A DNA stretch of 64,000 nucleotides from Bacteroidota bacterium (GCA_022711405.1 JAKLFC010000005.1:62001-126000); one strand, 5' to 3'; counted from the stretch's first letter, positions 30,334-46,131 are shown. The notes: generated from the sequence alone by a model not told the origin. A program made the numbers and translations.

Positions 30334-30365
30334 TTTGCAATTTTGTCAGGCGAAAACTATATTTG
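30334..30365 (+). promoter_or_regulatory. Bacteroidota-type promoter for the sigma factor/exosortase operon
   Basis: TTTG (30334-30337), 20 bases, TATATTTG (30358-30365): a full consensus match. The transcription start would be near 30372, leaving a leader of about 120 bases before the ATG at 30491. Confidence 0.75.
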
Positions 30366-30403
30366 CACAACCATTCCTGTGGTAACTTTCATTGTCAAAT
30401 CCC

Positions 30404-30430
30404 GTACAACTCCCTTGACGGAAGTTGTAC
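30404..30430 (+). promoter_or_regulatory. Hairpin in the leader of the sigma-factor gene
   Basis: An 8-bp perfect stem (GTACAACT / AGTTGTAC) with an 11-base loop, inside the predicted mRNA leader and about 60 bases before the start codon. There is no following T-run, so it is not a simple terminator. It may be an operator or an RNA control element. Confidence 0.45.
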
Positions 30431-30490
30431 ACAAAAATAGGAGGAACATTATCGGATAAAATCTACCCTTAACCATAAAAAAGGGTGCTC

Positions 30491-31072
30491 ATGCAAACCA
30501 ACAGAATTAGCGATCAGGAGCTAATCGGCGCATATTTATCCGGTAACCAGACCAGCCTCGAAATCCTCATTCATCGTCATAAGAAGCGTGTTTACGCTTA
30601 TATTTTAATGGTTGTCAAGGATTCCGAACTTGCCGATGATATTTTCCAGGATACCTTCATCAAGGTGATCAACACGCTCAGGACCGGAACCTATAAGGAA
30701 GAAGGTAAATTCATCCAGTGGGTGATGCGGATCGCACATAACCTGGTGATCGACCACTTCAGGAAATCCAGGCGTCTCCCGGTGGTGGATAACAGCCACG
30801 ATGATTTTGACATCTTCGACACGCTGCACTATACCGATGCTTCCATTGAAGAGAGGCTCATTACAGAACAGGTACACAACGACCTCAGGAAGCTCGTGGA
30901 TTACCTGCCCAAGGAGCAAAGAGAGGTCCTGATCATGCGTCATTATGCCGATATGAGTTTCAAGGACATCGCCGAACAGACCGACGTCAGTATCAATACC
31001 GCCCTGGGCAGGATGAGGTATGCACTGATCAATCTGAGGAAAATGATAAAGGAAAAGGATTTGATCAGCTAA
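30491..31072 (+). CDS. ECF-family RNA polymerase sigma factor
   Basis: A 193-residue sigma-70 factor from ATG 30491 (a GTG at 30485 is less likely). Region 2 is visible as HKKRVYAYILMVVKDSELADDIFQDTFIKV and IQWVMRIAHNLVIDHFRK. Region 4 is YLPKEQREVLIMRHYADMSFKDIAEQTDVSINTALGRMRYALINLRK, the helix-turn-helix that reads the -35 element. No anti-sigma gene follows. The next genes are the exosortase and its membrane partner, which suggests that this factor drives the sorting locus or is regulated with it. Confidence 0.92.
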   Translation: MQTNRISDQELIGAYLSGNQTSLEILIHRHKKRVYAYILMVVKDSELADDIFQDTFIKVINTLRTGTYKEEGKFIQWVMRIAHNLVIDHFRKSRRLPVVDNSHDDFDIFDTLHYTDASIEERLITEQVHNDLRKLVDYLPKEQREVLIMRHYADMSFKDIAEQTDVSINTALGRMRYALINLRKMIKEKDLIS

Positions 31073-31169
31073 ATTATTCCCCTGATACATCATTGCAGGC
31101 TGGATTTTCTTATTTTAGCATCGTAAATACCCCTCCCTTTGTGATAAAGTATTTAATTCTGTAGATCCT

Positions 31170-31781
31170 ATGACCTCTCAGAAATCAAGGAAGGAAGAAA
31201 AGTCAAGAATAAAGGAGAAAATGACCCAAAAAGAGGTCCGCAAACAGATGCTCCGGCATTTCAGACCTCTTCTCTATGCCATCATCGCCTGGGGTATCGT
31301 CATGCTCGTCCTGCATCTGCCAGCCATCCAGCTTAAGATCGTGGCGTTTTTCGTCCAGTTCACCATACAAAGCGCCCTCATATTTGGTAAGATCTTTTTC
31401 ATACCTATCAGCAGCCCCGAATTCCCTTTGTTACGTGTGGACGGATACCAGATGGCCATCATTATGGAATGCACGGCTTATAATTTCTATATTTTCACCC
31501 TGTTTCTCAGCCTTTTTTCTCCTGTCAGCTGGAAACAGCGGTTGATCACCCTGGCCATCTTTCTGCCCTCGATCTTTGTGATCAACAACCTGAGGTTTGT
31601 GACCATGGGATACATTGGTAAATATTACCCTGCTCAGTTTGATCAGGTTCATGATTATATCTGGAATATTCTGTTTGGTTTCCTGGTCTTTCTGATCTGG
31701 TTATGGAGATATCAGAAGTATCTGCCGGGAGGTACGAAGGCATCCCGGAAAACGACAGAGGAGCCAACAGCAGATCATTGA
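31170..31781 (+). CDS. Exosortase/archaeosortase-family protein
   Basis: A 203-residue membrane protein with a basic N-terminus (KSRKEEKSRIKEK) and about five or six transmembrane helices. The exosortase catalytic triad is in place and in order: Cys in IIMECTAYNFYIF (about residue 95), Arg in VINNLRFVTM (about 142), His in FDQVHDYIWN (about 158). These enzymes recognise a C-terminal signal of motif, transmembrane helix and basic cluster, cleave it and probably transfer the protein to another anchor. At about 200 residues it is a minimal version, without the extra domain of long exosortases. It lies between the sigma-factor gene (97-base gap) and a small membrane protein gene (46-base gap), and opposite three proteins carrying a matching tail. 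Assignment to a numbered Xrt subclass is not possible by eye. Confidence 0.88.
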   Translation: MTSQKSRKEEKSRIKEKMTQKEVRKQMLRHFRPLLYAIIAWGIVMLVLHLPAIQLKIVAFFVQFTIQSALIFGKIFFIPISSPEFPLLRVDGYQMAIIMECTAYNFYIFTLFLSLFSPVSWKQRLITLAIFLPSIFVINNLRFVTMGYIGKYYPAQFDQVHDYIWNILFGFLVFLIWLWRYQKYLPGGTKASRKTTEEPTADH

Positions 31782-31827
31782 AAGGTACGTCAGCTAATCA
31801 TCCAACCGATGTTAATCACTGAATGAT

Positions 31828-32355
31828 ATGACCAGACTGGAATCGAAACGGAGCAAGATCATCCTTCTGCTGGTCATAACGATCCTGGTCTTTGCCGTGT
31901 GGCAGATTGGGTATGAGCCAGTGCATGCCCGCATTCTGGCCGGGGGAACCAACGGCTGGCTGAAGATGGTTGGAAGTGACAAGAGCATCAAGTATGAAGT
32001 AAAGGACAACAAGTCCCTATTCAGGGTTCATATTACCATGGAGGGCAAGGAGTACACGTTTCCCCAGGAGATTGGCCCACTGCTGCAGCCAACGGTGATC
32101 ATAGTGTCGTGGCAGATATTCCTTTTCTTTATCCTGGGCTGGCGTAAGGGACTGCGACTGATGCTGATCAACCTCACCATCTTCGTCGGGTTACAGGTGT
32201 TTTTCCTGGTTCAGCTCACAGGATTCCATACATCAGGTTTCCAGAAATTCCTCTATGGACTGATGGTCGACAGCTTCTATATCATTGCTCTGATCCTGGT
32301 GATCAAGGATACGATTTTTCAGGCAGTGTTCCGTAAAAAGTCAGCTGAGGGATGA
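31828..32355 (+). CDS. Exosortase-associated small membrane protein
   Basis: A 175-residue protein with an N-terminal transmembrane helix (IILLLVITILVFAVW), an extracytoplasmic region of about 60 residues (GYEPVHARILAGGTNGWLKM...YTFPQEIGP), and three more hydrophobic helices before a basic C-terminus (RKKSAEG). I know no enzymatic motif in it. Position directly after the exosortase and similar size suggest the role of a companion, as seen for the membrane partner genes beside some exosortases (for example XrtH-type loci). It might present substrates or form part of the active complex. Confidence 0.7.
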   Translation: MTRLESKRSKIILLLVITILVFAVWQIGYEPVHARILAGGTNGWLKMVGSDKSIKYEVKDNKSLFRVHITMEGKEYTFPQEIGPLLQPTVIIVSWQIFLFFILGWRKGLRLMLINLTIFVGLQVFFLVQLTGFHTSGFQKFLYGLMVDSFYIIALILVIKDTIFQAVFRKKSAEG

Positions 32356-32378
32356 TCGTTTCAAGGAGCGGAAGGGAA

Positions 32379-32428
32379 TTACCCCTCCCCAACCCCTCCC
32401 CTTCAGGGGAGGGGCCAGGGGTGGGGTG
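32379..32428. repeat. GC-rich inverted repeat CCCCTCCCC...GGGGAGGGG
   Basis: Perfect arms at 32393-32401 and 32406-32414 with a 4-base loop, flanked by a further ACCCCTCCCC and GGGGTGGGG pair. Lies just after the end of the membrane-partner gene. Same family at 51439 and 54714. Confidence 0.8.
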
Positions 32429-32439
32429 CTGGGTTACCT

Positions 32440-32590
32440 GGTTACACAACTTGAACCGCTACGCGGTATTCATAGCCAAAATCCATTCCTGATAACTCCA
32501 TTGCCTTTAGTTGTAAAGTATTGGAATTTGAATCCTGGAATTTGTTTGGGATTTGGATCATGGAATTTGGGATTTTCTACCCGTAACCTT
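32440..32590. repeat. 3'-flank block shared with 34885-35036
   Basis: A stretch with GAACCGCTACGCGGTATTCA, then TATTGGAATTTGAATCCTGG, AATTTGTTTGGGA, TGGAATTTGGGATTTT and CCCGTAACCT in the same order as in the block at 34885-35036. It contains a GGAATTTG-type simple repeat. Confidence 0.7.
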
Positions 32591-32594
32591 CAAT

Positions 32595-32631
32595 AAAAAA
32601 GCCACTTCTGATGAACGGAAGTGGCTTTTTT
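32595..32631. terminator. Bidirectional intrinsic terminator
   Basis: AAAAAAGCCACTTC (32595-32608) pairs with GAAGTGGCTTTTTT (32618-32631). The stem has A- and T-runs on both sides, so it can stop the plus-strand exosortase transcript and the minus-strand substrate transcript. Confidence 0.85.
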
Positions 32632-32650
32632 ATTAAGAGGTTAAGTAATG

Positions 32651-34597
32651 TTACAGGATCCTTCGGAAACGGATCATCGTGAATGCAACGATCAGTCCGA
32701 TGCCCAGGTAGATTGCCCAGTTAGCCACAGGCACGTTATCCAGCTCAATGGGTTCAATGACGACTGTACTGGAGTTATTCGTCAGCACTGGATCACCCTG
32801 GTCTTCCTCTGAGATTTCAGCCGTATTTGCCCATTCTCCTCCATTATTCAGGATGGTAACCGTAAGGGTAGCGGTGGCAGTTGCTCCGCTGGCCAGTGGC
32901 CCCGGGAACCAGTGACCTGTTGTGGGCCAGTTGCATATCCCTTGTGTGACAGTATGCGAAACATACTGGAAACCCAGTCCCTGAAAATCACTGATGGTAA
33001 TGCCGGTTGCATTGCTGGGCCCATGGTTGGTCAGAACGATCGTGAAAGTGATGTTGCTGCCAAAATAATAGGGTGGAGCAGCCGGAGAAGTCACCGTTTT
33101 AAGAATACTTAGATCTGCCTGGGGGCCGGGAGCCTGGTCATAGTAGATCACCAACCTGCCGTTGGCTCCTCTGCCGCCATTCCCGTTTCTTCCTCCTCCT
33201 CCGCCACCTCCTGGTGCTATTCCGGGAGAGCCGTTTCCGTTACCAATCCACGACCAGTTGCTACCGTTCCCGCCATTGCCGCCACCCGTCGGTGCGGTGG
33301 CTCCGATTCGGTTCACTGCATTGTTCCCTACGGCTGCGGTTCCGGCCGAAGATCCGCCGCCGCCGCCATAACCACCGAAGGCATACCAAACCCCATCATC
33401 GCCATTACCCCCGCTGAATGTAACATCACCGATACTGGAACCTGCTGATCCCCCTGTACCTCCAGTGCCCTGACCCATATAGGGACCGGTAAATCCAGGA
33501 CCGCCTCCCTTTGCCATGGCGGTTGTGAGTGTACGGAACCAGGAATCTTCTCCGGGCTGATCGGATGCAGGCGCACTCCCTGCTCCTATATGGTAATTAT
33601 AGGTCTGACCCGGGGTTACCGACAGCGAGCTTCTGGAAAAAGCACCACCACCACCTCCTCCGTTCGTATAGAACCAGGTGCCTGCATCACCGCATCCGCC
33701 GCCACCCCAGAGTTCCACCACGATGGTGGAAATGCCCGCAGGAGCCGTCCAAGTACCATCACCCGACGCCGTAAAAACTTCCGAAGCCTGAGCCGATCCC
33801 GTGCCACTGATGAGAAATGGAAAACCCTGCTGCGCACCTGATCCTGTATCAAGGGCACCACCCCATGTCCCCGCAAGGTTTTGCTTGCCATTTCCAGTTG
33901 TAGACTGCCCTGTAATCGTGATTGGTTCAGCCCATGGGCCGGATGACAGGGAGCCTGTTGCTGAATATTCAACCCAGTAAATTCCCGCAGTCAGAGTAAG
34001 ACCTGGTGTTGAACAAACGAGACGCATGATTGGACGATTAGTCATTGTCAAATTATCTTCCAGTACACGGTAGATATTGGTCCAGCTAGTGGAGGTTAAC
34101 CGATTTGTCGTCAGGTCACCCCAGATGACAGAACCACCACCACTTGGATCACCGTTCCAGATTTGCAAATATCCTCCTGTGAATGAAGAAGTTGTGGTTG
34201 AGCCCGTTTGATGCCCAAAGAAATCAAACGATTCAATACTCCATGTTTCCCCAGCAGGAACAACAAAATCATCCGCAATACTATAGGTCAGGTTCTGCTG
34301 GTATCCAAATCCATAAGTATTCATTGATAAGGTTACATTCTGCAGAATACTTGCATCTGCACCTCCGGCACCCTGCCCGGGGCCGTTCACCAGCGGACCA
34401 TTGTCATAGAGAATATTGGCCCTGCTGCCTGCCAGGGATGGGATGGGCAGGTTGTCGGGATTGATCACAATGGGTGAGGATGAGAACTCAGAGGGTTGCG
34501 CAATATCTGCCCGTAAATTCTGAGTGGTTCGTGCTTCCTGTGCAAGGACAAAGCTTGTCACAGCTGCAAACATCATGAGGATCAGTAATTTTTTCAT
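32651..34597 (-). CDS. Secreted glycine-rich/DUF11 protein with VPxxNWA exosortase-type tail
   Basis: A 648-residue secreted protein. Order: signal peptide (LLILMMFAAVTSFVLAQ); an unassigned beta-rich region (about 30-270); a glycine-rich domain (about 272-490) with long Gly/Ser/Asn runs such as GGGGGGAFSR, like bacterial glycine-rich ligand-type domains; one DUF11 repeat (about 497-615, TITISDFQGLGFQYVSH). The tail is VPVANWAIYLGIGLI, VAFTMIRFRRIL: a short motif, a hydrophobic helix and an arginine cluster. That is the tripartite form recognised by exosortases. No T9SS tail is present. It has its own promoter (34654-34684) and terminator and lies convergent to the exosortase operon. Confidence 0.85.
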   Translation of the reverse strand: MKKLLILMMFAAVTSFVLAQEARTTQNLRADIAQPSEFSSSPIVINPDNLPIPSLAGSRANILYDNGPLVNGPGQGAGGADASILQNVTLSMNTYGFGYQQNLTYSIADDFVVPAGETWSIESFDFFGHQTGSTTTSSFTGGYLQIWNGDPSGGGSVIWGDLTTNRLTSTSWTNIYRVLEDNLTMTNRPIMRLVCSTPGLTLTAGIYWVEYSATGSLSSGPWAEPITITGQSTTGNGKQNLAGTWGGALDTGSGAQQGFPFLISGTGSAQASEVFTASGDGTWTAPAGISTIVVELWGGGGCGDAGTWFYTNGGGGGGAFSRSSLSVTPGQTYNYHIGAGSAPASDQPGEDSWFRTLTTAMAKGGGPGFTGPYMGQGTGGTGGSAGSSIGDVTFSGGNGDDGVWYAFGGYGGGGGSSAGTAAVGNNAVNRIGATAPTGGGNGGNGSNWSWIGNGNGSPGIAPGGGGGGGRNGNGGRGANGRLVIYYDQAPGPQADLSILKTVTSPAAPPYYFGSNITFTIVLTNHGPSNATGITISDFQGLGFQYVSHTVTQGICNWPTTGHWFPGPLASGATATATLTVTILNNGGEWANTAEISEEDQGDPVLTNNSSTVVIEPIELDNVPVANWAIYLGIGLIVAFTMIRFRRIL

Positions 34598-34653
34598 GAT
34601 AAGGAGATTTAAAAGATGTGATATTTATACGTTATGGAAATGTAAAAGTTAAG

Positions 34654-34684
34654 CAAATATATGAAATTAAAATCCATATTTCAA
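34654..34684 (-). promoter_or_regulatory. Promoter of the glycine-rich/DUF11 substrate gene
   Basis: Minus strand TTG (34684-34682), 20 bases, TATATTTG (34661-34654). The leader before the ATG at 34597 would be about 50 bases. Confidence 0.7.
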
Positions 34685-34814
34685 GAGATCCCATAATTCA
34701 GGCAGCTATTACAACCGAATAATAGGGTGGTTTCCGGAACACTAAATTGATTTTGATATATAAAATATTGTAAATCAATATTATAAAAATTCATGTATTT
34801 CAGAGAAAAATATA

Positions 34815-34834
34815 TCCGGATAAATTTATCCGGA
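34815..34834. repeat. Perfect 20-bp palindrome TCCGGATAAATTTATCCGGA
   Basis: A perfectly self-complementary 20-mer in an otherwise AT-rich gap. It could be a dimeric-regulator operator or a relic of a mobile-element end. It lies too far (about 220 bases) upstream of the nearest start to be an obvious operator. Confidence 0.6.
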
Positions 34835-34884
34835 CAAAGTTTCTGTTTTCACTGGGAACAGGTTGCAGATCGTCGATGTCACCG

Positions 34885-35036
34885 GGTTACAAGACAGAAC
34901 CGCTACGCGGTATTCACAGGCAAGATCCATTGCTGATTACACCACTACCTATTCGTCGCAATGTATTGGAATTTGAATCCTGGAATTTGTTTGGGAGGTG
35001 GACCCTGGAATTTGGGATTTTATTCCCGTAACCTCA
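34885..35036. repeat. 3'-flank block shared with 32440-32590
   Basis: Same ordered elements as the block downstream of the neighbouring substrate gene: GAACCGCTACGCGGTATTCA, TATTGGAATTTGAATCCTGG, AATTTGTTTGGGAGG, TGGAATTTGGGATTTT, CCCGTAACCT. Suggests that the 3' part of the gene was duplicated with its flank. Confidence 0.7.
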
Positions 35037-35038
35037 AC

Positions 35039-35069
35039 AAAAAAGCCACTTCCGGTCAGAAGTGGCTTT
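35039..35069. terminator. Intrinsic terminator
   Basis: AAAAAAGCCACTTC (35039-35052) pairs with GAAGTGGCTTTC (35059-35070). On the minus strand the A-run becomes the T-run that ends the DUF11 substrate transcript. Nearly the same stem as 32595-32631. Confidence 0.8.
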
Positions 35070-35090
35070 CTGTTAAGAGGTTAAGGAATG

Positions 35091-36677
35091 TTACAGGATC
35101 CTGCGGAAGCGGATTACGGTGAAGGCAACAATCAGCCCGATGCCAAGGTAAAGTGCCCAGTTGGAAACAGGCACCATAGGTGAAATGGTTGGTGAGATAC
35201 TAAGGGTATTTTCATTGTTAAAAGGATTTGGATCCGGTTGATCAGCATCGGTAATTGATACTGTGTTTCCCCAAGGGCCGCTATTATTTACAATAGTGGC
35301 TGTAATGGTAACAGTAACTGTAGCTCCGTTGGCCAGATTCCCGACAGTCCAGACTCCATTAACCGGATTATAGGTTCCCTGGGAAGCTAAGTGTGAAACA
35401 TAGGAGAAACCAGCCTGTAACTGATCCAGAACATAAATACCGGTTGCATCATTCGGTCCATAATTGTGCAGGGTGATCGTGAAGGTGACATTATTACCAA
35501 AATAATAGGGTCCCGCACTTACTGTTTTTAACACACCTAAATCGGCTAAAGGTGCTGGAGGTGTTTCCGGAGTAATGCTAACGCAATCTTCGTTATTGGC
35601 AGTAACTGGATCTGGCTGATCTGAATCGGTTATCTCAGCACAATTTTCATAATCTCCCGAGACGTCAATGGTGGCAGTAATGGTTAATGTCGCCGTTGCT
35701 TCATAGTCCAGTGTCCCAATGTTCCATATTCCTGAACCGCTATCATATAATCCGGCTGAAACAATATGCGAAACGTAAGTAAAACCGGAAGGTAAAAGAT
35801 CACTTACTTCCACACCGGTGGCATTATCAGGCCCGAGGTTCTCAACAGTGATGGTGAAGGTGACAAGTGCCCCGAAATAGTGCGGTCCTGGACTCACTGT
35901 TTTGGAGATCTGCAAATCGGTTTCATCAACTAAACCATTAATGATGAACATCAATGCGCCTGCTCTGTTATAAGATCCGCCACCGCCCGTCCAGGAGTAT
36001 TGCTTGTCTCCGGTCGATGTCACATTGGTGAAAGATTGAACATCCGCTTCAATACTGGCATAGGTGGATGTATTCTCATATACCTCTGTCATACCAGATG
36101 GACCGGTGATGCCGTCAATATTATTATGATGAGAAAATCCAGCAACAAGTAAAAAATTATTCGGGGTTGTAAGCCCTCCGATGGAAGGGATGGCAAGAGG
36201 GCTGCCATTACTGTCATATACATTGCTGCTGCTCCCTATAGACGTCCAGCTCGTTACCCGTCCTGCCAAAGCTTTGACATATTGGGAATTATCATTATCC
36301 GGGGTCCCTGTCAGAGTGAATGTATATCCAGAAGGTTCAGAAACTGTCGCAACTTTCCAAAACCCTGCCACACCTGAACAATGTCCATCATCCTCTACGC
36401 ACGTTGTTGATCCGATATATGTCATAGCTGCATCATCACATGTAATCGTCCCGGGGCTGTCATGTGTGAAAATCATGACGATGATCAGATCGCCTGAAAC
36501 AAGATTATCAGGATGGTTGACCGTGATGGAAGTGGGAGGATTGTCATTGTTGACAATCGAGACTTCCTGATCAGCCGAATGCCACACAGGTGCCTGCGCA
36601 ACTACAGAAAAGGTAAAAGCTGAAATCATCACCAATAAAAAAGTGATGGCAATAATGGAGAGTCTTGGTTTCTTCAT
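35091..36677 (-). CDS. Secreted protein with two DUF11 repeats and VPxxNWA exosortase-type tail
   Basis: A 528-residue secreted protein. After the signal peptide (IIAITFLLVMISAFTFSVVAQ) comes a beta-rich region (about 30-245) with HPDNLVSGDLIIVMIF and WTGGGGSYNRAGALMFIING, a pattern seen in many secreted multi-domain proteins but without a name I can give. Two DUF11 repeats follow (about 255-375 and 382-495), each with FGxxVTFTITxxNxGPxxATG and an E/D-rich end. The tail is VPVSNWALYLGIGLI, VAFTVIRFRRIL. Own promoter (36742-36772) and terminator. Likely substrate of the exosortase encoded at 31170-31781. Confidence 0.85.
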   Translation of the reverse strand: MKKPRLSIIAITFLLVMISAFTFSVVAQAPVWHSADQEVSIVNNDNPPTSITVNHPDNLVSGDLIIVMIFTHDSPGTITCDDAAMTYIGSTTCVEDDGHCSGVAGFWKVATVSEPSGYTFTLTGTPDNDNSQYVKALAGRVTSWTSIGSSSNVYDSNGSPLAIPSIGGLTTPNNFLLVAGFSHHNNIDGITGPSGMTEVYENTSTYASIEADVQSFTNVTSTGDKQYSWTGGGGSYNRAGALMFIINGLVDETDLQISKTVSPGPHYFGALVTFTITVENLGPDNATGVEVSDLLPSGFTYVSHIVSAGLYDSGSGIWNIGTLDYEATATLTITATIDVSGDYENCAEITDSDQPDPVTANNEDCVSITPETPPAPLADLGVLKTVSAGPYYFGNNVTFTITLHNYGPNDATGIYVLDQLQAGFSYVSHLASQGTYNPVNGVWTVGNLANGATVTVTITATIVNNSGPWGNTVSITDADQPDPNPFNNENTLSISPTISPMVPVSNWALYLGIGLIVAFTVIRFRRIL

Positions 36678-36741
36678 TTTGGGTAAATTTTTGTGGGATA
36701 CTGATAGTAATTCTCTGAATAAATTTAAGATTTGGGTATTG

Positions 36742-36772
36742 CAAATGTATAAATTATAAATAAAAAAACAAA
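36742..36772 (-). promoter_or_regulatory. Promoter of the two-repeat DUF11 substrate gene
   Basis: Minus strand TTTG (36772-36769), 19 bases, TACATTTG (36749-36742). Leader about 60 bases to the ATG at 36677. Confidence 0.7.
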
Positions 36773-36794
36773 ATGACGAATTGGATTTAAATAA

Positions 36795-36825
36795 AGAAGC
36801 TGCCTCGAATAATGAGACAGCTTCT
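36795..36825. terminator. Terminator hairpin after the choice-of-anchor L gene
   Basis: AGAAGCTG (36795-36802) pairs with CAGCTTCT (36818-36825), with an extra CTC/GAG pair inside. On the minus strand a T-rich run (TTTATTTAAA) follows. Confidence 0.75.
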
Positions 36826-36854
36826 CTTTCGTTAAAAGGTGACGAACCGACGCG

Positions 36855-38147
36855 CTACAGAATCCTGCGGAAGCGGATTACCGTGAAGGCAACGATCAGC
36901 CCGATGCCAAGGTAAAGTGCCCAGTTGCCGATGGGCACCTCGGGTGATGTCTCCGGTTCGATGATGGCGGGGCTTTGGTTGTTGGTATTGGTTGGGTCAT
37001 CCTCATTGGATTCCACTTGTGCGAGGTTATCCCATGGCCCACCATTGTCCAGAATTTTTGCAACAAGAGTACCCGTTGCCGTGGCGCCGTTAGCCAGGTT
37101 GCCAACCGTCCAGTCAGGAGGAGTGGGGAAACTGTTCGTACCCTGGGTTGCAGTGAAGGAAACAAATTGTAATCCGGCTGACAGTAAATCAGTCACCAGA
37201 ACACCAGTGGCCGCATCAGGTCCATAGTTGTGAACAGTAATGGTGTATGTAACATTATCGCCAAAATACCAGGGCTCAGGGCTGGCAGTCTTCATAATCC
37301 CAAGGTCGGCATGATCTTCTTCAATCGGAGTGAAACCCTGCGTTTTGATGAACACCCAGGCATCATAGATTTCATCAGAAGCATCGGCGATGGCAAATTT
37401 AATATGATTATCCACATTCGGATTGATTGCGCCTGTGGCGGTTAACACTACCGTGAATCCATCCATTTCTGTACAGTAGGGTGCGTCAGGCTGCCACCAC
37501 CAATCAGGAGGATCATTATCAATATAATAGGATGAATTCGTAAGATGATTGATGGTATTGACAGATACGGGTGTGGTTGTGGAAGGTATTAAAGCTATGT
37601 TGGTGCCATTCAGGTAGAATGCAAAAACATCATTATATTCGGAGTTGACATATTCAGTGTACTCATCTGAACCAAAGACAAACTGAATGAAGATGGCGGT
37701 GTTTGCACCCGGATTGAAATCAAACTCCAGTACACTGGCATCGTAGGTCGGTTCACCCGCCAGTGCAGTCAGATCGGCATCACCTGGCTCATTGTTATCG
37801 CGGCTAATATTTTCCTCTTCATTGGGTCCGATGGCGTTGTTCAAACTCCCGGAACTCATGACAACACCGCTTTCCATGCTGATCCCGGCAGCAATACCGC
37901 CTGTAAATTTGCCAGCTGCAACATCATTCCCCGTATAAGAAACACCGGAGTAAGTCATTCCGGGACCCAGGATCTCCTGTACAAGATCATCCTCGTCGAG
38001 TGAAGGGCTTGCAAGACTGGTCATCACAAAGCCAACACAGTCCCTACTGCCACCGGATTGATCAGTTTTGTCAGGTCCTGCTGCTCTTTCCTGTGCAAAA
38101 GCAAAAAGTATGGACATGCTGAAAAACAGGGTGAGTAACTTTTTCAT
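36855..38147 (-). CDS. Secreted choice-of-anchor L/DUF11 protein with VPxxNWA exosortase-type tail
   Basis: A 430-residue secreted protein: signal peptide (LLTLFFSMSILFAFAQ); a choice-of-anchor L domain (about 40-270; note LVQEILGPGMTYSG, GIAAGISMESGVVMSSG, FVFGSDEYTEYVNSEYNDVFAFYLNG); one DUF11 repeat (about 283-400). The tail is VPIGNWALYLGIGLI, VAFTVIRFRRIL. The N-terminal domain is known for occurring with different C-terminal anchors (PEP-CTERM, T9SS and others), which supports reading the tail as an anchoring signal. Own promoter (38208-38237) and terminator. Confidence 0.87.
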   Translation of the reverse strand: MKKLLTLFFSMSILFAFAQERAAGPDKTDQSGGSRDCVGFVMTSLASPSLDEDDLVQEILGPGMTYSGVSYTGNDVAAGKFTGGIAAGISMESGVVMSSGSLNNAIGPNEEENISRDNNEPGDADLTALAGEPTYDASVLEFDFNPGANTAIFIQFVFGSDEYTEYVNSEYNDVFAFYLNGTNIALIPSTTTPVSVNTINHLTNSSYYIDNDPPDWWWQPDAPYCTEMDGFTVVLTATGAINPNVDNHIKFAIADASDEIYDAWVFIKTQGFTPIEEDHADLGIMKTASPEPWYFGDNVTYTITVHNYGPDAATGVLVTDLLSAGLQFVSFTATQGTNSFPTPPDWTVGNLANGATATGTLVAKILDNGGPWDNLAQVESNEDDPTNTNNQSPAIIEPETSPEVPIGNWALYLGIGLIVAFTVIRFRRIL

Positions 38148-38207
38148 AATACTAAGATTTTAAGTTGATTGTATTTAATAATTTCAAATTTCTACTGTTT
38201 CGAATGG

Positions 38208-38237
38208 CAAATATATGAACAGTTGTCAATAAAACAA
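38208..38237 (-). promoter_or_regulatory. Promoter of the choice-of-anchor L substrate gene
   Basis: Minus strand TTG (38237-38235), 19 bases, TATATTTG (38215-38208). Leader about 55 bases to the ATG at 38147. Confidence 0.7.
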
Positions 38238-38386: not shown

Positions 38387-41300
38387 TCATTTTATAATGA
38401 ATATTTTGTACATTTTACTGACAGATCCCTGATGCGTATCCCCGGATTTGATCGTCATGGTAAGAAAATAAATCCCGCTCTTCAGATCCATGCCCTCTGA
38501 GTGATCCATCCGGTACATGCCAGCTGAATATTGAACCGGCAACCCTCTGTCCAGCTTCCTTCCCGTCAAATCCGCCAACGACCATTCCACAGCTGCTTCC
38601 TGAGACAGGCTCATTTCGACTGTAAAACGTCCGCTGCTGGGATTTGGGAATATCCTGACGGTATTCAGCGCATCCAATTCAGGAATTGCAAGTACTTCAA
38701 GGTGTTTGATCACTTCCACGGATTCAGCCTGTACATTGCCAGCCAGGATCTCGCCCCAGCCAGGATTTGGGATCCCTTGCGGAAAACGTACTAATTCGAT
38801 TCTTCCTGCAGGGAGTGACCTGTTGTCGTAACTGAAGATCAAAAGACGCAGCTTGCTGTCCACCCGGCGCTGTACCATTTCAAAGCCGGGGATCATCAGT
38901 TCCGGCAGGAGCGAATCCGGTCTCATCCAGTCAATGTCCAGTTGCAATCCGGCAAGCGTTCCGTCACTCTGCAGCTCGATATGATCCGGAGTCAGGTAAA
39001 CGTGTGCGGGTTGGGAAGGTCCTTCCAGCAAAGCCGACTTTTTCCCTCCCAGGATCATGTTGACCATACGCACCACATCCAGTACGTTGATAGATCCATC
39101 GCCGTTGGCATCGGCATTTTCGGGGCAGAAAGGCACAGGCTCCTGACCCAGAATTGCATTTACCACCGTCACGATATCCAGCACATTGACAAAACCATCA
39201 CAGTTGGCATCTCCTGTCACGATATCGCTTAAGGTAGCGAAGGTATATCCCTCCGACCAGCTGCTCATGGATTCATCTCCACAGATCGCCCTGACATAAT
39301 AATCATATTCGGTCGCCGGATCCAATCCCGTCAGGGTGTAAGGATTGGAAGAGATACCAGCCAATAGGGTCCCTTCGGAAGCTACATCGAAACCATGCAG
39401 GCCGTACAGAATATCCCACTCCGTTTCTGTGGTTCCATGGGTCCAGACCAGAACCGCCGAGGTGGTGGTCTGGTCCGAAGCCGTAAGGCCCGTGGGCTGA
39501 TCACAGGTCACGATGAAATCCGTCAGTGCCGACAGGCCACCGGCGGCAAAAAGTCCGTCGTGGCTGGGGAACGAAGGATCGTAGAGTACATCAACGGGTA
39601 TGGCGGTGCCTTTCCTCTTGGAGCACAGGATCCATTTGATGGGCTGCCCTATCACAAAGCCTTCAGTGATGTCAGGCGTGGCCGGATCATCGCCATAAGC
39701 CATCATCACCCTATCCTCCGTTCCATCCCATTCAACAAGTCCTGCATTGACCAGTTCACCCGAGTCATCTTCATAGAACACTCCGATGGCATCACCGGGA
39801 TAGAGATTATTGAGGGTATGGGGCATCTGGATGGTATGGATCACGTCGGTGGGGAAGGGATTCCAGTAGGGGCAGAGGTGTACCCGGTAATCCTCCACTT
39901 CTCCGTCGAAGGCCAGTCCGGAATAGGTAAGGCCTCCTGTTGTATTGAACCGGAACCTTGTATAGGTGTTCCCTTTAAGAGCGGTGGCAGGGATCGTGAA
40001 CGACAGCGGATTTGAACCTGCCACCAGGGGCTGATTGATGAAGATGTGCTCAGGAGTCGCCACCCAGTCGCCATTCTTATTGTAGTCGATCCATGCATTC
40101 AGAAATCCCGGAACAGAGGCCGTCACAGTGACACTGGCCGTTTTCCCGACATACATCGTACCGATGAAGGCCACCCCGTCCTCATCATCTCCCAGAGAGG
40201 GATAAAATATATCGTTATCATCCCCGCTTGCCGGAACATTGGGCTGCCCATCTGTTTCTGCATCCACCTTGCTTCCGATAAAGACACCTGACGATATAAG
40301 ATGCCGTGCTCCATTGTTGAAAAGGAACGTGGGATAATTGAAGGTAAGTTCGGCATTGTCAGGATCGTCTCCAAAATCCAGAGCGCCCTGTGGATCAACG
40401 TCTTCGATGAATACGGCATAGTCCTCTACTTCGCCTTCTGATACCAGTCCGTCATAATTGATCACAGCCTTGAATGTTCTGAACCTGTACCGGACATAGG
40501 TATTGCCGGGATTGGCGTTTGCCGGCACGGTGAATGTCAGGGTGTTGGGGCCTGCATTGACAGGCTGGATAGTGAAGATATGTTCTCCGGCATCTGCCCA
40601 GCTGCCGTTGATGTTGAAGTCAAACCACCCGTCAAGGTATCCGAATACGGATGCGGTGACATTAATGGTCACCGTGGCACCCGGACTTACACCTGCCGGC
40701 ATGGTCACCCCATCCTCGTCGTCACCCAGCGATGGGTACACAAGATCAATATCGTCGCCGGTGGAGGGAATGTTGGGCTGACCATCGGGTTCTGCGTCAA
40801 TGTTGCTTCCGATATAAATGGAGGGAATGATGATATGCCGCGCTCCATTGTTGGCCAGCAGGGTTGGATAGATGTAGTTTCCGTCCCCCAGATCAGGTGC
40901 GTCGCCAAAATCAAGCAGGGGCTCAGGCAGGCACTCCCCTACCGTCAGGCAGAAAACACCTGCTGTGTCAACACATCCGTGGCTGTTGGTCACCACCACC
41001 GAGATCTGATGGCTGCCGGGGACATTCGTGATGAACGCCAGGTTCTTCCCGGATCCGATGGGCGATCCGTAATTTCCGTTGTCGTACCAGTCAATGCTGG
41101 TATAGGCGTTCGCATACGTGTTATTTGGAAATACGGCATGTAACGGCAACGGCATGTACAGGTGCAATGTGTCCGCAACGCAGATGCTGTCGCATCCCAG
41201 CGGGAAAAGGCTCAGATCGGGCTTTGCGTAAATGGAGCCTGCATTGACCGTAGTCGAACATCCGTTGTCCTTATCGGTGACCGTCAGGCTGTAAAATCCG

Positions 41301-44300
41301 GGAATGGAGGCGACGATCACGGGCGTGGTGGCGCCGTTGTTCCACTGATAGCTGAAATTGGCGGTATCAACGGGCGTCGGCGTGAGCGTCACAGGTGTTC
41401 CTTCGCACAGATTAAGGGAGTTGATGAATACCACGGGTGACTGGTAAAAAATGATGCATAGCGTGTCACTTGCCGTACATCCTGTGGTTACATCGGTCAC
41501 ATCCACAATGAATTGCTGCGTGGAAGGTAGCGTCCCGGGAAGTGTCAGACTGACCCAGGTCACGTTGCTGTTCGGCGGGGAGAAAGATGCGCCGGCGGGA
41601 TTGCTGCTCCAATTATACGAGTAATTCGGATCAAAGTAGGCACTCAGGCTGAATGCCACCATACCTCCTGCCGTACCGCATACATGGGCATCTCCGGTCA
41701 CTTCTGCTCTGGGAGTCCCCAGCATATAGATGAAGATCTTGTTCGATTTACTGGTGCAACCGAAACTGTTGGTGACTTCAACCCAATAGGTGCCTGTCTG
41801 GCTGGCGATGAAGGTCTGGCTGCTGGCACCGCCAATGGCATTGCCGTTCTTATACCACTGGTAGGAAGACATCCCCGTGCAGGCGGAAAAGGTCACGGAA
41901 CTGCCGGGACAGAAGGTGGTGTCGGAAACCGTTATGGTACATGCGGGTGCCGGATTGACCGTGATGGTATTGGTGGCAGTCGCCACACATCCCATCTCAT
42001 CGGTGATGGTAAGTGACACCTGGTATGTATTGGCACTGGTGTAGGAATGCTGGGTGAGTGGCACGTAGGACGTGGATCCGTCACCAAACGTCCACGAATA
42101 GCTGTAATTGGGATTGCTGGGCAGTGCTGCAAATACGGCCGGTGTGTTTTCGCATACAGGATTGGTAAAGGTAAAGCTTGCTGCCGGGAGAAGAATAGTA
42201 ACGTTCTGCTGTGCTGTGGACAGGCAACCCGATGAAGAAATGATGGTGAGCGTGACCGTGTAGGTCCCCGAATTGGAAACGGTCAGCACGGGACTTGGAA
42301 CATTGGCATTTGGGAAAAAGGTGCCTGTTCCCGGCCCTGTCACGGTCCATTGGTAATTTGTGATGGTGGATGGCGGGATAACAATGGATTGGTCGATCAG
42401 TGAGACCTGGCTGCATACAACGTAGGTGCTGAATTGCGCCAGCACATCACATCCGGGGCCGGGCCCACCTCCTCCGGTGCAGTTTTCAATCTTGATGTTG
42501 ACAATATTCGATCGTGCACTGCAGCCATTCTGGGTCACAATGACATAATACGGATAGATCCCCGGAGCAGGAAAGGTGGCGAGGTTATTCGTCAGCACCA
42601 GGGTGGCACTGGTGCCTCCTGAAACTGGATTTCCGTTCACATACCACTGATAGGAGTACCCTGTTCCGGTGGGAGTGGAAAGTGTGACCACCTGGTTGTC
42701 GTTCAGGCAGAAGACAGGCAGGGTGCTATAGGATGCCACGGCCACCGGAGGATCGTTGATGGTGACCGAGAGGGTGGCCGTGCCGGCGCAGTTTGTCACC
42801 GACAGGATGGCTGTGGTGGCTGGTCCATGCCAGAGAACGCTGATGGTGTTGGTGCCCTGCCCCGCCTGGATGGTGCCCCGGTAAGACGGAGAAATGGTCC
42901 ATTGTACATCTCCGGGTGGATTGGAACCCACTGCATTGTAAGTCACTATGTCATCCACACATACCACCTGGGTACCGGTGATGACCGGTGGAGGATACGC
43001 GCTGACCGACACCGATTGCGTCAAGGAGGAACAAAAGTTCCCCGGGCTGATCTCTATCTGCTGGTACACACTGACGGTCCAGGGACCGTTGCCCGTGAAT
43101 CCTACAAGGACTGAATCCTTATCGGCACCCATCTGTGAGATGAGATTCCCGCTGCTGACTGACCAGATAAAGGGGCTGCCGCTGAGGTTGGAGGAGATGC
43201 TGTAAACGAATTTCTCACCCGGACATACGGTCAAAGGGCCGGTGATGCTTCCAAGTACCGGCTTTGCTACCACTTCAACATTCTTTACCGCGCTGGCATT
43301 GCACCAGGCAGCTGTGTTGAGGGGAACCGCCGTTATGGTATAGGTACCCGGTGTCCAGAGCACATTGATCGAAGGGGTTCCGTTCCCCGACTGGATCACT
43401 GGCCCGGAAGGATTGATCGTCCAGTTGGCAGGACCGCTGGCAACATATGTAGTAATATTACCTTCACAGACGGTTTCGTCACCTGAAAATGAAAAGACAG
43501 GTAAGACATTCACCTGCACCGAGTCAACGCCATTGCATCCGGCTAACGGATTATCATACTGGCATTTCACCCAGTATGTCCCTGCCGTATTGAACGTAAT
43601 GTTGACACTTGGAGTATTTCTGTTCAGCTGGTTGAATGTATGGAGTCCCCCCGTAACGGTCCATAAATAATAAGTTCCTGGCAACCAGGGTAATGAGTAG
43701 CTCCCGGAAGCACCGGCGCACAACGTCACCGGCCCGCTGACAGGAAGGTTGGGGTACAGAACAGGAACATGGATGGTTGTCGATCCCTGGCACGATGAAG
43801 AAGGACAGCTTTGCAGCGTCACGGTCGTAGGAACAGTATAGGTGCCGTTCCATTTGACCTTTATGCAGCTGGTCCCTGCCCCGGAAATGATGGTTCCTCC
43901 CGTGACACTCCATGCATAGGTATTACAGACCATGGACGTACAAAATGAGGAGGTGTCCCCTGGACATACGGTCCCGAAGCAGCAGTCCAGATCAATGACC
44001 GGACCTTCACCCGGAAGCACGACGATGACCATGGATGCGGTATCGGAACATCCGCAGGGCACTTTCGTCTCACCCTGTGCTCCACCCACATAATGACCCG
44101 CTCCCATGTCAGTGGCAGTGAGGATCACTGTATAGGTTCCCGGAGTGGAATACGCATGATCGGGCGGATTGGCAAGGCTGGATGTCGTCCCGTCACCAAA
44201 ATCCCAGTGGTAAACACTTCCGCCAAGGGAGGCGTTGGTGAAATGGACTGGCGTATTCTCGCAAACTGTGTCGCTTGAAACCTGAAAAGCGGCCTGGGGC

Positions 44301-44707
44301 CCGTCGATCAGGCAGATTTCCTGCATGATCGAATCCACGCAGGATCCCCCGCTGTTCAGGTCACTGATCACTACCTTGATGAACCCTGAGCTTCCTGAGC
44401 CCCACACGACGGTAAGGGGATTTCCGTTATAGCTCGCCGGCGTTCCGCCGGTGACAGTCCATATATAGGTAAAATTCGGATCCCTGGGGTAAACGGTATA
44501 CACATGCGGGGAGTTCTTGCAGGCTGCCAGCGTGAGTTTCAGGGTACCTCCCGGAGTCCCCTGGTTGCGGGCACAGGCTCCTTCCGCGGGACAAATGTCC
44601 ACTGCATCCTGCAGTATGAATTCCGGACAACAGACAGATTGTGCGGGTACGTGATAGTGAAGGACGATGAACAGGGTAGCAATTAGTAAATTTCGTAGTG
44701 TTTTCAT
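38387..44707 (-). CDS. Giant PKD/GEVED/dockerin surface protein with T9SS type A sorting domain
   Basis: 2,106 residues. Order: signal peptide (LLIATLFIVLHYHVPAQS); a long chain of PKD-like and other Ig-like repeats (about 60-1230; WDFGDGTTSS and WTFGDGSTSYV are clear PKD motifs); two GEVED domains (about 1270-1590, each LDFGDxPD...GEVEDY); a fibronectin III-like domain (about 1690-1770); a dockerin-like pair of calcium loops (GDANCDGFVNVLDIVTVVN and NADANGDGSINVLDVVRMVN, about 1775-1830); and a T9SS type A tail (VRIFPNPSSGRFTV ... GIYFLTMTIKSG...KMYKIFIIK). It is exported by the Sec system and then through the outer membrane by T9SS. It is a different export route from that of the three neighbouring VPxxNWA proteins. 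Probably an adhesin or structural surface protein. Confidence 0.9.
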   Translation of the reverse strand: MKTLRNLLIATLFIVLHYHVPAQSVCCPEFILQDAVDICPAEGACARNQGTPGGTLKLTLAACKNSPHVYTVYPRDPNFTYIWTVTGGTPASYNGNPLTVVWGSGSSGFIKVVISDLNSGGSCVDSIMQEICLIDGPQAAFQVSSDTVCENTPVHFTNASLGGSVYHWDFGDGTTSSLANPPDHAYSTPGTYTVILTATDMGAGHYVGGAQGETKVPCGCSDTASMVIVVLPGEGPVIDLDCCFGTVCPGDTSSFCTSMVCNTYAWSVTGGTIISGAGTSCIKVKWNGTYTVPTTVTLQSCPSSSCQGSTTIHVPVLYPNLPVSGPVTLCAGASGSYSLPWLPGTYYLWTVTGGLHTFNQLNRNTPSVNITFNTAGTYWVKCQYDNPLAGCNGVDSVQVNVLPVFSFSGDETVCEGNITTYVASGPANWTINPSGPVIQSGNGTPSINVLWTPGTYTITAVPLNTAAWCNASAVKNVEVVAKPVLGSITGPLTVCPGEKFVYSISSNLSGSPFIWSVSSGNLISQMGADKDSVLVGFTGNGPWTVSVYQQIEISPGNFCSSLTQSVSVSAYPPPVITGTQVVCVDDIVTYNAVGSNPPGDVQWTISPSYRGTIQAGQGTNTISVLWHGPATTAILSVTNCAGTATLSVTINDPPVAVASYSTLPVFCLNDNQVVTLSTPTGTGYSYQWYVNGNPVSGGTSATLVLTNNLATFPAPGIYPYYVIVTQNGCSARSNIVNIKIENCTGGGGPGPGCDVLAQFSTYVVCSQVSLIDQSIVIPPSTITNYQWTVTGPGTGTFFPNANVPSPVLTVSNSGTYTVTLTIISSSGCLSTAQQNVTILLPAASFTFTNPVCENTPAVFAALPSNPNYSYSWTFGDGSTSYVPLTQHSYTSANTYQVSLTITDEMGCVATATNTITVNPAPACTITVSDTTFCPGSSVTFSACTGMSSYQWYKNGNAIGGASSQTFIASQTGTYWVEVTNSFGCTSKSNKIFIYMLGTPRAEVTGDAHVCGTAGGMVAFSLSAYFDPNYSYNWSSNPAGASFSPPNSNVTWVSLTLPGTLPSTQQFIVDVTDVTTGCTASDTLCIIFYQSPVVFINSLNLCEGTPVTLTPTPVDTANFSYQWNNGATTPVIVASIPGFYSLTVTDKDNGCSTTVNAGSIYAKPDLSLFPLGCDSICVADTLHLYMPLPLHAVFPNNTYANAYTSIDWYDNGNYGSPIGSGKNLAFITNVPGSHQISVVVTNSHGCVDTAGVFCLTVGECLPEPLLDFGDAPDLGDGNYIYPTLLANNGARHIIIPSIYIGSNIDAEPDGQPNIPSTGDDIDLVYPSLGDDEDGVTMPAGVSPGATVTINVTASVFGYLDGWFDFNINGSWADAGEHIFTIQPVNAGPNTLTFTVPANANPGNTYVRYRFRTFKAVINYDGLVSEGEVEDYAVFIEDVDPQGALDFGDDPDNAELTFNYPTFLFNNGARHLISSGVFIGSKVDAETDGQPNVPASGDDNDIFYPSLGDDEDGVAFIGTMYVGKTASVTVTASVPGFLNAWIDYNKNGDWVATPEHIFINQPLVAGSNPLSFTIPATALKGNTYTRFRFNTTGGLTYSGLAFDGEVEDYRVHLCPYWNPFPTDVIHTIQMPHTLNNLYPGDAIGVFYEDDSGELVNAGLVEWDGTEDRVMMAYGDDPATPDITEGFVIGQPIKWILCSKRKGTAIPVDVLYDPSFPSHDGLFAAGGLSALTDFIVTCDQPTGLTASDQTTTSAVLVWTHGTTETEWDILYGLHGFDVASEGTLLAGISSNPYTLTGLDPATEYDYYVRAICGDESMSSWSEGYTFATLSDIVTGDANCDGFVNVLDIVTVVNAILGQEPVPFCPENADANGDGSINVLDVVRMVNMILGGKKSALLEGPSQPAHVYLTPDHIELQSDGTLAGLQLDIDWMRPDSLLPELMIPGFEMVQRRVDSKLRLLIFSYDNRSLPAGRIELVRFPQGIPNPGWGEILAGNVQAESVEVIKHLEVLAIPELDALNTVRIFPNPSSGRFTVEMSLSQEAAVEWSLADLTGRKLDRGLPVQYSAGMYRMDHSEGMDLKSGIYFLTMTIKSGDTHQGSVSKMYKIFIIK

Positions 44708-44919: not shown

Positions 44920-46131
44920 ATGCTGACTCAGGAGAATCTGATCGTATTTCTATATGCCCTGCCTGTTTATCAGTTGTTGTTTTACACGGTGCAGCTGATC
45001 ACGTTCAGGAAAGCATATCCGTCGCGCAAGAGCCTCGGTTTATTGCTGCTGCTGATGACTATGGTTCTGATCATGAATGCCATTCATCACTTTGGGTATG
45101 ACCGGTTGATGGCTGTGCTCTTCATTTTTTTTACTCCACTGCTGCTTTGTCTGCTGCCCGTCTTTCATCGTTACCTATCCACCCTGACCGGCGCAAACCG
45201 CCAGAACGGAAGTTTATCAAGGCTGGGTCATTACATCATACCGATCATTGGCTTCGGGATGTCACTGTTTACTTTTGGCATGCTGACGCTGAATGAACGG
45301 CTGATGATCATCACCGGTATCAATCCACCCGACGGTGGATCAGGTGCATTTGCATTTGCTGCATGGGATTTTAAATGGATCCTTCCGATTCTTCTCATTG
45401 TCCAGCTGATCGTATCGTTCGTTAAGGCCAGCCGTCTTCTTCATCAGGAGCGGTTAGCCACACGTCAGGATCCGGGTCGTTTTGCATATCTTCAGGTGCG
45501 CTGGATTTTAATCATTGCCAGCAGCCTGATCCTTTTTATCATGGCCATCGTGCTGCCTTTTCTTTTTCCTGCACAGAGTCCGGTTTCCGGAGCGCTGCTG
45601 GCAAATGTGATCCTGCTTCTGACAGGGGGGATCATAGGTTATTACGGGATGAAACAGGACGCATTGCTGGTACAGGTATCCTCTCTTGGAAGGGAACAAC
45701 AAGCCAGTCCGGAAGCCTCGGGACCGCCCATCCAGCATGTGGAGCAGAAGGCAGCACCCTCCGCCTCCAGTGCTGCCCCCCTGGTTGCAGATGAAGAAGC
45801 CCGCAGGATCATCAGCCAGCTCCATTCCATGATGCAGGCAAAAAAACCCTATACAGATGCCCGTTACTCGCTGGGCGAGCTTTGCGGGCAAATGGAAATC
45901 CCACGGCGGATCATGACGTACGTGCTGAATGACGTGATGGGGAAAAATTTCTACGGCGTAGTGAATGAATACCGGCTCAGGGAAGCCATCCAGATCATGG
46001 AGACCAGCGGCAGGAAATATACCATTGAGGCAATAGCGGAAATGGTGGGCTTTAACTCCAAATCATCCTTCTATGCCTGCTTCAAAAAATTCACAGGCAT
46101 GTCTCCCAAGGAATATCTCGAAAAGAAATGA
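44920..46131 (+). CDS. Membrane-bound AraC-family transcriptional regulator
   Basis: A 403-residue protein: six or seven hydrophobic helices (about 5-245), a charged Ala/Ser/Pro-rich linker (about 250-290), then an AraC-type DNA-binding domain (about 295-402) with two helix-turn-helix units. The second holds YTIEAIAEMVGFNSKSSFYACFKKFTGMSPKEYL, the family signature. It probably senses a membrane or extracytoplasmic signal. It starts 212 bases after the divergent giant T9SS gene, which it could control. No target site identified. Confidence 0.88.
   Translation: MLTQENLIVFLYALPVYQLLFYTVQLITFRKAYPSRKSLGLLLLLMTMVLIMNAIHHFGYDRLMAVLFIFFTPLLLCLLPVFHRYLSTLTGANRQNGSLSRLGHYIIPIIGFGMSLFTFGMLTLNERLMIITGINPPDGGSGAFAFAAWDFKWILPILLIVQLIVSFVKASRLLHQERLATRQDPGRFAYLQVRWILIIASSLILFIMAIVLPFLFPAQSPVSGALLANVILLLTGGIIGYYGMKQDALLVQVSSLGREQQASPEASGPPIQHVEQKAAPSASSAAPLVADEEARRIISQLHSMMQAKKPYTDARYSLGELCGQMEIPRRIMTYVLNDVMGKNFYGVVNEYRLREAIQIMETSGRKYTIEAIAEMVGFNSKSSFYACFKKFTGMSPKEYLEKK

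Follow-up and report, generated by a model that had tools for sequence, protein, structure and literature searches.

The window analysed here, a 64,000 nt stretch of Bacteroidota bacterium GCA_022711405.1 (JAKLFC010000005.1:62001-126000), carries the genes for an exosortase, for a small membrane protein directly downstream of it that we call the partner, and for three secreted proteins on the opposite strand (substrates 1-3) that end in almost the same C-terminal tail. A gene for an extracytoplasmic function (ECF) sigma factor lies upstream, and the open reading frames of all six proteins were found where the first-pass annotation of the window had placed them (Table 1). Judged by sequence, the enzyme represents an exosortase subclass that has not been described before and that comes with a tail and a partner of its own; it belongs to a known superfamily and is not categorically new. 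We think it quite likely that the locus represents an exosortase sorting system that is specific to a set of uncultured Bacteroidales.

Table 1. Features of the exosortase locus and its surroundings in the window, and palindromic sites in other genomes and loci (G and L are our genome and locus numbers).
Feature	Position	Strand	Description
ECF sigma factor	30485..31072	+	195 aa, GTG start; exosortase 97 bp downstream, same strand
Exosortase, unnamed subclass	31170..31781	+	203 aa; Cys101/Arg142/His161
Partner membrane protein	31828..32355	+	175 aa; one helix, three strands, three helices
Substrate 1	32651..34597	-	648 aa: N-terminal signal-like stretch, Gly-rich domain, DUF11, tail
Tail of substrate 1, VPVANWAIYLGIGLIVAFTMIRFRRIL	32654..32734	-	
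Putative operator, 24-bp palindrome TATCCGGATAAATTTATCCGGACA	34813..34836	.	215 bp 5' of substrate 1
Substrate 2	35091..36677	-	528 aa: N-terminal signal-like stretch, two DUF11 domains, tail
Tail of substrate 2, VPVSNWALYLGIGLIVAFTVIRFRRIL	35094..35174	-	
Substrate 3	36855..38147	-	430 aa: N-terminal signal-like stretch, choice-of-anchor L domain (NF038133 E=7.8e-73), DUF11, tail
Tail of substrate 3, VPIGNWALYLGIGLIVAFTVIRFRRIL	36858..36938	-	
2106-aa protein	38387-44707		PKD, GEVED, dockerin and type IX secretion system (T9SS) C-terminal domains; adjoins the exosortase substrates
AraC-type regulator, membrane-spanning	44920..46131	+	403 aa; 68% identical to L098 9533-10741
Palindrome TGTCCGGATAAAATTTATCCGGACA	G158		
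Palindrome TGTCCTGAATTATTAATTCAGGACA	G048		
Palindrome TGTACGAATAAATTTATTCGTACA	G046		
Palindrome TGTACGCCTAAGCCTTAGACGTACA	L142		
Palindrome TGTAGTCCTAAGTCTTAGGACTACA	L103		
TGT...ACA palindrome, 24-25 bp	L014 8679-8702		
TGT...ACA palindrome, 24-25 bp	L053 8579-8603		
TGT...ACA palindrome, 24-25 bp	L217 (contig C54 of G048)		
TGT...ACA palindrome, 24-25 bp	L226		

The exosortase passes both superfamily models, with 50.7 bits against a cut-off of 23 for TIGR04178 and 28.6 bits against 25.7 for PF09721, and TIGR04178 is matched by all 15 orthologs scanned as well. The ordered set of cysteine, arginine and histidine that the first-pass annotation had pointed out lies in the membrane core and is invariant across 42 aligned orthologs, and the AlphaFold2 model of the enzyme has a predicted local distance difference test score (pLDDT) of 88. 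When hidden Markov models of the exosortase subfamilies were compared, which had been proposed as a check, no named class came over its cut-off: XrtF (TIGR04128) gave 11.6 bits (cut-off 90), XrtX (NF046081) 33.5 bits (cut-off 170), XrtH (TIGR04177) 37.8 bits (cut-off 86), archaeosortase B (ArtB) 40.8 bits (cut-off 150) and pacearchaeosortase 45.1 bits (cut-off 80), with lower scores for the remaining named classes. A literature search on XrtX, on IPTL-CTERM together with exosortases and on exosortases in Bacteroidota gave nothing useful in the library searched. The same genome holds a second, XrtX-like exosortase (G000:C12:283721-284215; L198 6599-7315, minus strand), which scores 94.9 bits with the XrtX model, where the cut-off is 170. 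A scan with PF09721 had indicated one exosortase in the genome, and this was overturned by the XrtX model, which finds the second enzyme that PF09721 misses.

Close orthologs of the window enzyme number 15 in 295 genomes of the order (41-100% identity, E<=1.6e-47; the next match has E=2e-8), and a scan of 84,980 species gave 49 ortholog loci. The titles of their records are those of Bacteroidota metagenome-assembled genomes (MAGs), including a Lentimicrobiaceae bacterium that is close kin, with the exception of L127. This record is titled Mollicutes, it agrees with the Bacteroidales record L126 in gene lengths and scores, and it may be a mislabelled MAG. A tree was built that contains 42 orthologs, XrtF and XrtX sequences, further exosortases of the order and the second enzyme of this genome. 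Made by a quick method and with long branches present, it gathers all 42 orthologs on a single branch (support 100; stem of 3.1 changes per site). We do not assign the enzyme to any named class, because its scores are far below the cut-offs and its clade is separate from XrtF, XrtX and the other exosortases. One could also imagine that the system is a described one (XrtX, XrtF, XrtH or IPTL-CTERM) which has diverged too far for the models to find it. The weak matches to XrtH and XrtX would fit with this, as would the order of an enzyme followed by a small membrane protein, which is found in XrtF (PMC10936215) and XrtX too. The distance to the cut-offs and the separate clade make it highly improbable, however, and in addition the partner shows no detectable relation to those of XrtF and XrtX and the IPTL-CTERM model misses all tails.

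The partner gene is found directly downstream of the exosortase in all 46 loci whose stretch reaches far enough, at a spacing that goes from an overlap of 85 bp to a gap of 134 bp. The protein matched none of the protein family models. Its AlphaFold2 model (pLDDT 91, predicted template modelling score 0.82) has a long helix, then three strands and three helices, and a structure search of the PDB with this model gave no significant match; solved relatives were found for neither exosortase nor partner by sequence, and no significant ones by structure. The partners of XrtF and XrtX are related to each other (hhalign probability 99.5%), whereas the partner described here has no detectable kinship to either of them (2% to that of XrtF and 2.5% to that of XrtX), and homology with them was discarded as unsupported. 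By sequence, the partner is a new protein family, and it may have a role in sorting.

The last 27 residues of the three substrates are 85-93% identical, with 23 of 27 columns invariant, so their near identity was rightly noted in the first reading of the window. A profile of these tails finds six more C-terminal tails in the same genome, with E-values down to 1.7e-15, and the tails are for this reason not a matter of chance. With a broader profile the genome has at least 11 tails, each of them the C-terminus of an open frame. No fewer than eight of the 11 are located outside the window locus, on proteins of different make-up (e.g. with F5/8 type C and DUF7901 domains), and this, together with the second exosortase, means that the locus is not self-contained, as had been claimed. 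Taken together, 58 tailed genes drawn from many genomes give the consensus [V/I]P[L/V/I]S[N/D]W[A/P] and, behind it, a hydrophobic stretch of helix length; the search that collected the tails fixes the P and the W in part. All 58 tailed proteins have at least two Lys or Arg within the last eight residues, and 54 of them have a hydrophobic stretch at the N-terminus, compared to 341 of 642 control open reading frames (p=1.6e-10). The window substrates carry DUF11, which is an isopeptide-forming stalk domain in surface adhesins (PMC12617251), and this suggests that they are surface proteins.

None of the Pfam and NCBIfam models of sorting tails (PEP, PGF, VPXXXP, VPDSG and so on) matched any of seven tails at E<=10, although the filters of HMMER may drop very weak matches, and the T9SS C-terminal domain (Por_Secre_tail) is absent from the three window substrates. 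Even with the threshold relaxed to E<=10, the IPTL-CTERM model (PF18203, cut-off 20.8 bits) found no tail in any of five tailed genomes. The tail had been likened to the IPTLxxW motif with one residue less; the shorter spacing between P and W is real, but no test supports a kinship. With an enzyme in no named class and a tail in no catalogue searched, the idea of a new or poorly described subclass has held up well.

Most codon differences among the window tails are silent, with 0.05-0.09 nonsynonymous changes per site (dN) and 0.27-0.76 synonymous ones (dS), and since dN is well under dS, selection acts on the protein. At the same time, the genes of substrates 1 and 2 are 83% identical over about 300 bp at their 3' ends, and because this similarity runs past the stop codon, the near identity of the tails comes in part from recent duplication. 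The copied 3' ends include a terminator-like hairpin (32600-32760 and 35040-35200). Such copying would also be expected if the tails were plain membrane anchors, spread by duplication and never processed, and a helix with a basic end is indeed enough for anchoring in a membrane. An anchor alone does not need a motif, however, and the P-x-x-x-W motif sits on unrelated proteins in many genomes. As the tails moreover are under purifying selection and track an exosortase, we hold this explanation to be very unlikely.

Of the 295 genomes of the order, 15 were found to carry tails; 12 genomes have both enzyme and tails, three the enzyme only, three tails only and 277 neither (Fisher p=2.8e-16). The genomes in this test are not independent of each other, but enzyme and tails occur together in seven or more families of the order. 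Two of the three genomes first counted as having the enzyme only do carry tails: G075 holds VPLANWPIYLAVLLMVGSVAVLVRKFR, and G199 holds VPLSNWALVISI, followed by Ns. Among the three first counted as having tails only, G270 was rejected as a tailed genome, its match being a partial, internal chance match. Tailed genes adjoin the exosortase in about 20 of the 49 ortholog loci, and the commonest tailed neighbour is of the same type as substrate 3, with the choice-of-anchor L domain. The first-pass annotation had proposed a dedicated pair of enzyme and tail, with many tails in genomes that hold the enzyme and none in those without it. Because tails and enzyme co-occur across the order, this expectation agrees with the data apart from a few exceptions, with tails lacking the enzyme only in G048 and G250, and as part of the sorting system we regard a dedicated pair as the probable state of affairs.

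Some observations weigh against such a pair. G179, which is of the same genus, has both enzyme and partner and no recognisable tail; G048, a 97% complete MAG, has six tails and neither ortholog nor partner; G250 (78% complete) has tails without a close enzyme or partner; and this genome has its XrtX-like exosortase, for which the tails would be possible substrates in principle. The six tails of G048 belong to six genes in a row on contig C54 (L217). That the tails are served by the XrtX-like enzyme, or by exosortases generally, and not by the local one, is an explanation that would account both for the second exosortase and for the tails of G048 and G250. It is, however, difficult to reconcile with the class genomes, where XrtX-type matches occur in 92 of 149, while the local type of enzyme or real tails were found in this genome alone among 345 (two other tail matches, in G430 and G534, were false, being an FtsW-like protein and a match on the opposite strand). 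Within the order the tails instead track the local clade, and in many loci they adjoin an enzyme of the local type, which makes processing by other exosortases very improbable.

The ECF assignment of the sigma factor is clear (sigma70-ECF TIGR02937, E=2.4e-27), and it had been counted as a part of the locus. A close homologue stands beside the exosortase in three of 15 ortholog loci scanned, all of them of this genus, and no sigma factor cluster emerged in the wider neighbour analysis of ortholog loci, so it was dropped as a conserved part of the system. Read by eye, the promoters of tailed genes resemble those of housekeeping genes in Bacteroidota (TAnnTTTG near -7), and if so no ECF sigma factor is needed to explain their expression. 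The regulator that does recur in the neighbourhood is the AraC-type protein: homologues of it, with HTH_18/HTH_AraC domains, accompany the exosortase in 13 other records, one of which is the same genome as a sister. In the two sister genomes the AraC-type gene comes directly after the partner gene, and the window substrates and the 2106-aa protein thus sit between genes that are neighbours there.

A class of palindromes resembling TGTCCGGATAAATTTATCCGGACA was spotted when the upstream regions of tailed genes were read. In 0.5 Mb of this genome all three sites with one or two mismatches precede tailed genes (34813-34836 and sites on contigs C1 and C26), compared to zero sites with up to two mismatches in shuffled sequence, and this count is less biased than the one across genomes. 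In other genomes the inner letters vary, but the site stays palindromic with TGT...ACA ends and lies mostly 70-220 bp upstream. When nine or more positions are required to pair, a TGT...ACA palindrome stands before 17 of 57 tailed genes, from about ten genomes, and before 6 of 264 other genes; the p-value of 8e-10 is optimistic since this form was picked after the sites had been seen, and the sample is enriched in tailed regions. In four of the six control cases a tailed gene borders the same intergenic space, and a fifth is itself a tailed gene that the locus end truncates. An unbiased palindrome score alone separates tailed from other genes more weakly, because GC-rich intergenic repeats score too. 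One GC-rich intergenic palindrome, CCCCTCCCCTGCTAGCAGGGGAGGGG, is found upstream of 49999-51414 and of the exosortase gene of L046, and is apparently a dispersed repeat of the genus. No TGT...ACA palindrome was found upstream of the AraC, sigma factor or exosortase genes of the window. In G083 the palindrome has an AraC-type gene on one side and a tailed gene on the other. Together the tailed proteins probably make up a regulon under a dimeric regulator, and from the placement of its gene, that in G083 included, the membrane AraC protein would be the best candidate to act through the palindrome.

The 2106-aa protein of T9SS type lies beside the substrates, and two sorting systems are thereby found side by side in the window.

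We hypothesize that the tailed proteins exit the cytoplasm through Sec by means of their N-terminal signal peptides, and that the C-terminal helix then would retain them in the inner membrane with the basic end inside, so that the [V/I]P[L/V/I]S[N/D]WA motif is positioned at the outer face. There the exosortase and its partner could cut at or near the motif, using Cys101 together with Arg142 and His161, and the new C-terminus would probably be joined to a lipid or a glycan, by which the protein is released for the cell surface. This route from export to release or transfer is modelled on the PEP-CTERM/exosortase system (PMC12188702). A variant that overlaps with it is that the exosortase cuts the tails and frees the proteins without joining them to anything, and release is one option that has been proposed for cyanobacterial PEP-CTERM proteins (PMC12188702). 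It would also fit that the neighbour clustering of ortholog loci revealed no conserved acceptor-synthesis or polysaccharide gene beside the enzyme. On the other hand, the catalytic residues of exosortases resemble a transpeptidase set, and archaeosortase substrates are reportedly lipid-anchored, to go by the title of PMC7157517, and we therefore find release alone unlikely.

A sorting system with transfer to an acceptor could be taken further. It is conceivable, but rather doubtful, that the exosortase is a two-protein enzyme with the partner as an essential subunit, that the membrane AraC protein and the palindrome switch a regulon of surface proteins, that the acceptor is particular to Bacteroidota, and that the whole runs in parallel to the T9SS sortase. 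As the enzyme, the partner and the tagged proteins of the whole genome are all named, cleavage, acceptor and partner function are directly testable in Bacteroidota. The system would add a second C-terminal sorting route in cells that also have a gene for a T9SS-type cargo protein, which lies in the window too.

IPTL-CTERM tails have a short proline motif, then a Trp, a helix and a basic end, and the tails described here share this layout, but the distance from P to W is four in place of five, and PF18203 does not find them. With PEP-CTERM proteins and EpsH/XrtA they have the order of signal peptide, motif, helix and basic end in common, while the motif is another and a polysaccharide cluster is not conserved beside the enzyme. 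XrtX is common in Bacteroidia, of similar size and mostly followed by a small membrane protein, but the enzyme of the window is far from its cut-off and in a separate clade, the partners are not detectably related, and the class genomes that are rich in XrtX are without VPxxNW tails. XrtF (Fjoh_1448/1449; TIGR04128/TIGR04127) is likewise a small exosortase of Bacteroidota with a small membrane protein at once downstream, and the two enzymes are homologous (hhalign 97%), although the TIGR04127 partner is unrelated by sequence. In Flavobacterium johnsoniae the substrates of XrtF were left to future work and called dissimilar to PEP-CTERM (PMC10936215), whereas the tails are identified here. CrtB of Nostoc, finally, has an associated protein encoded immediately downstream (PMC12188702), just like the pair of exosortase and partner in the window.

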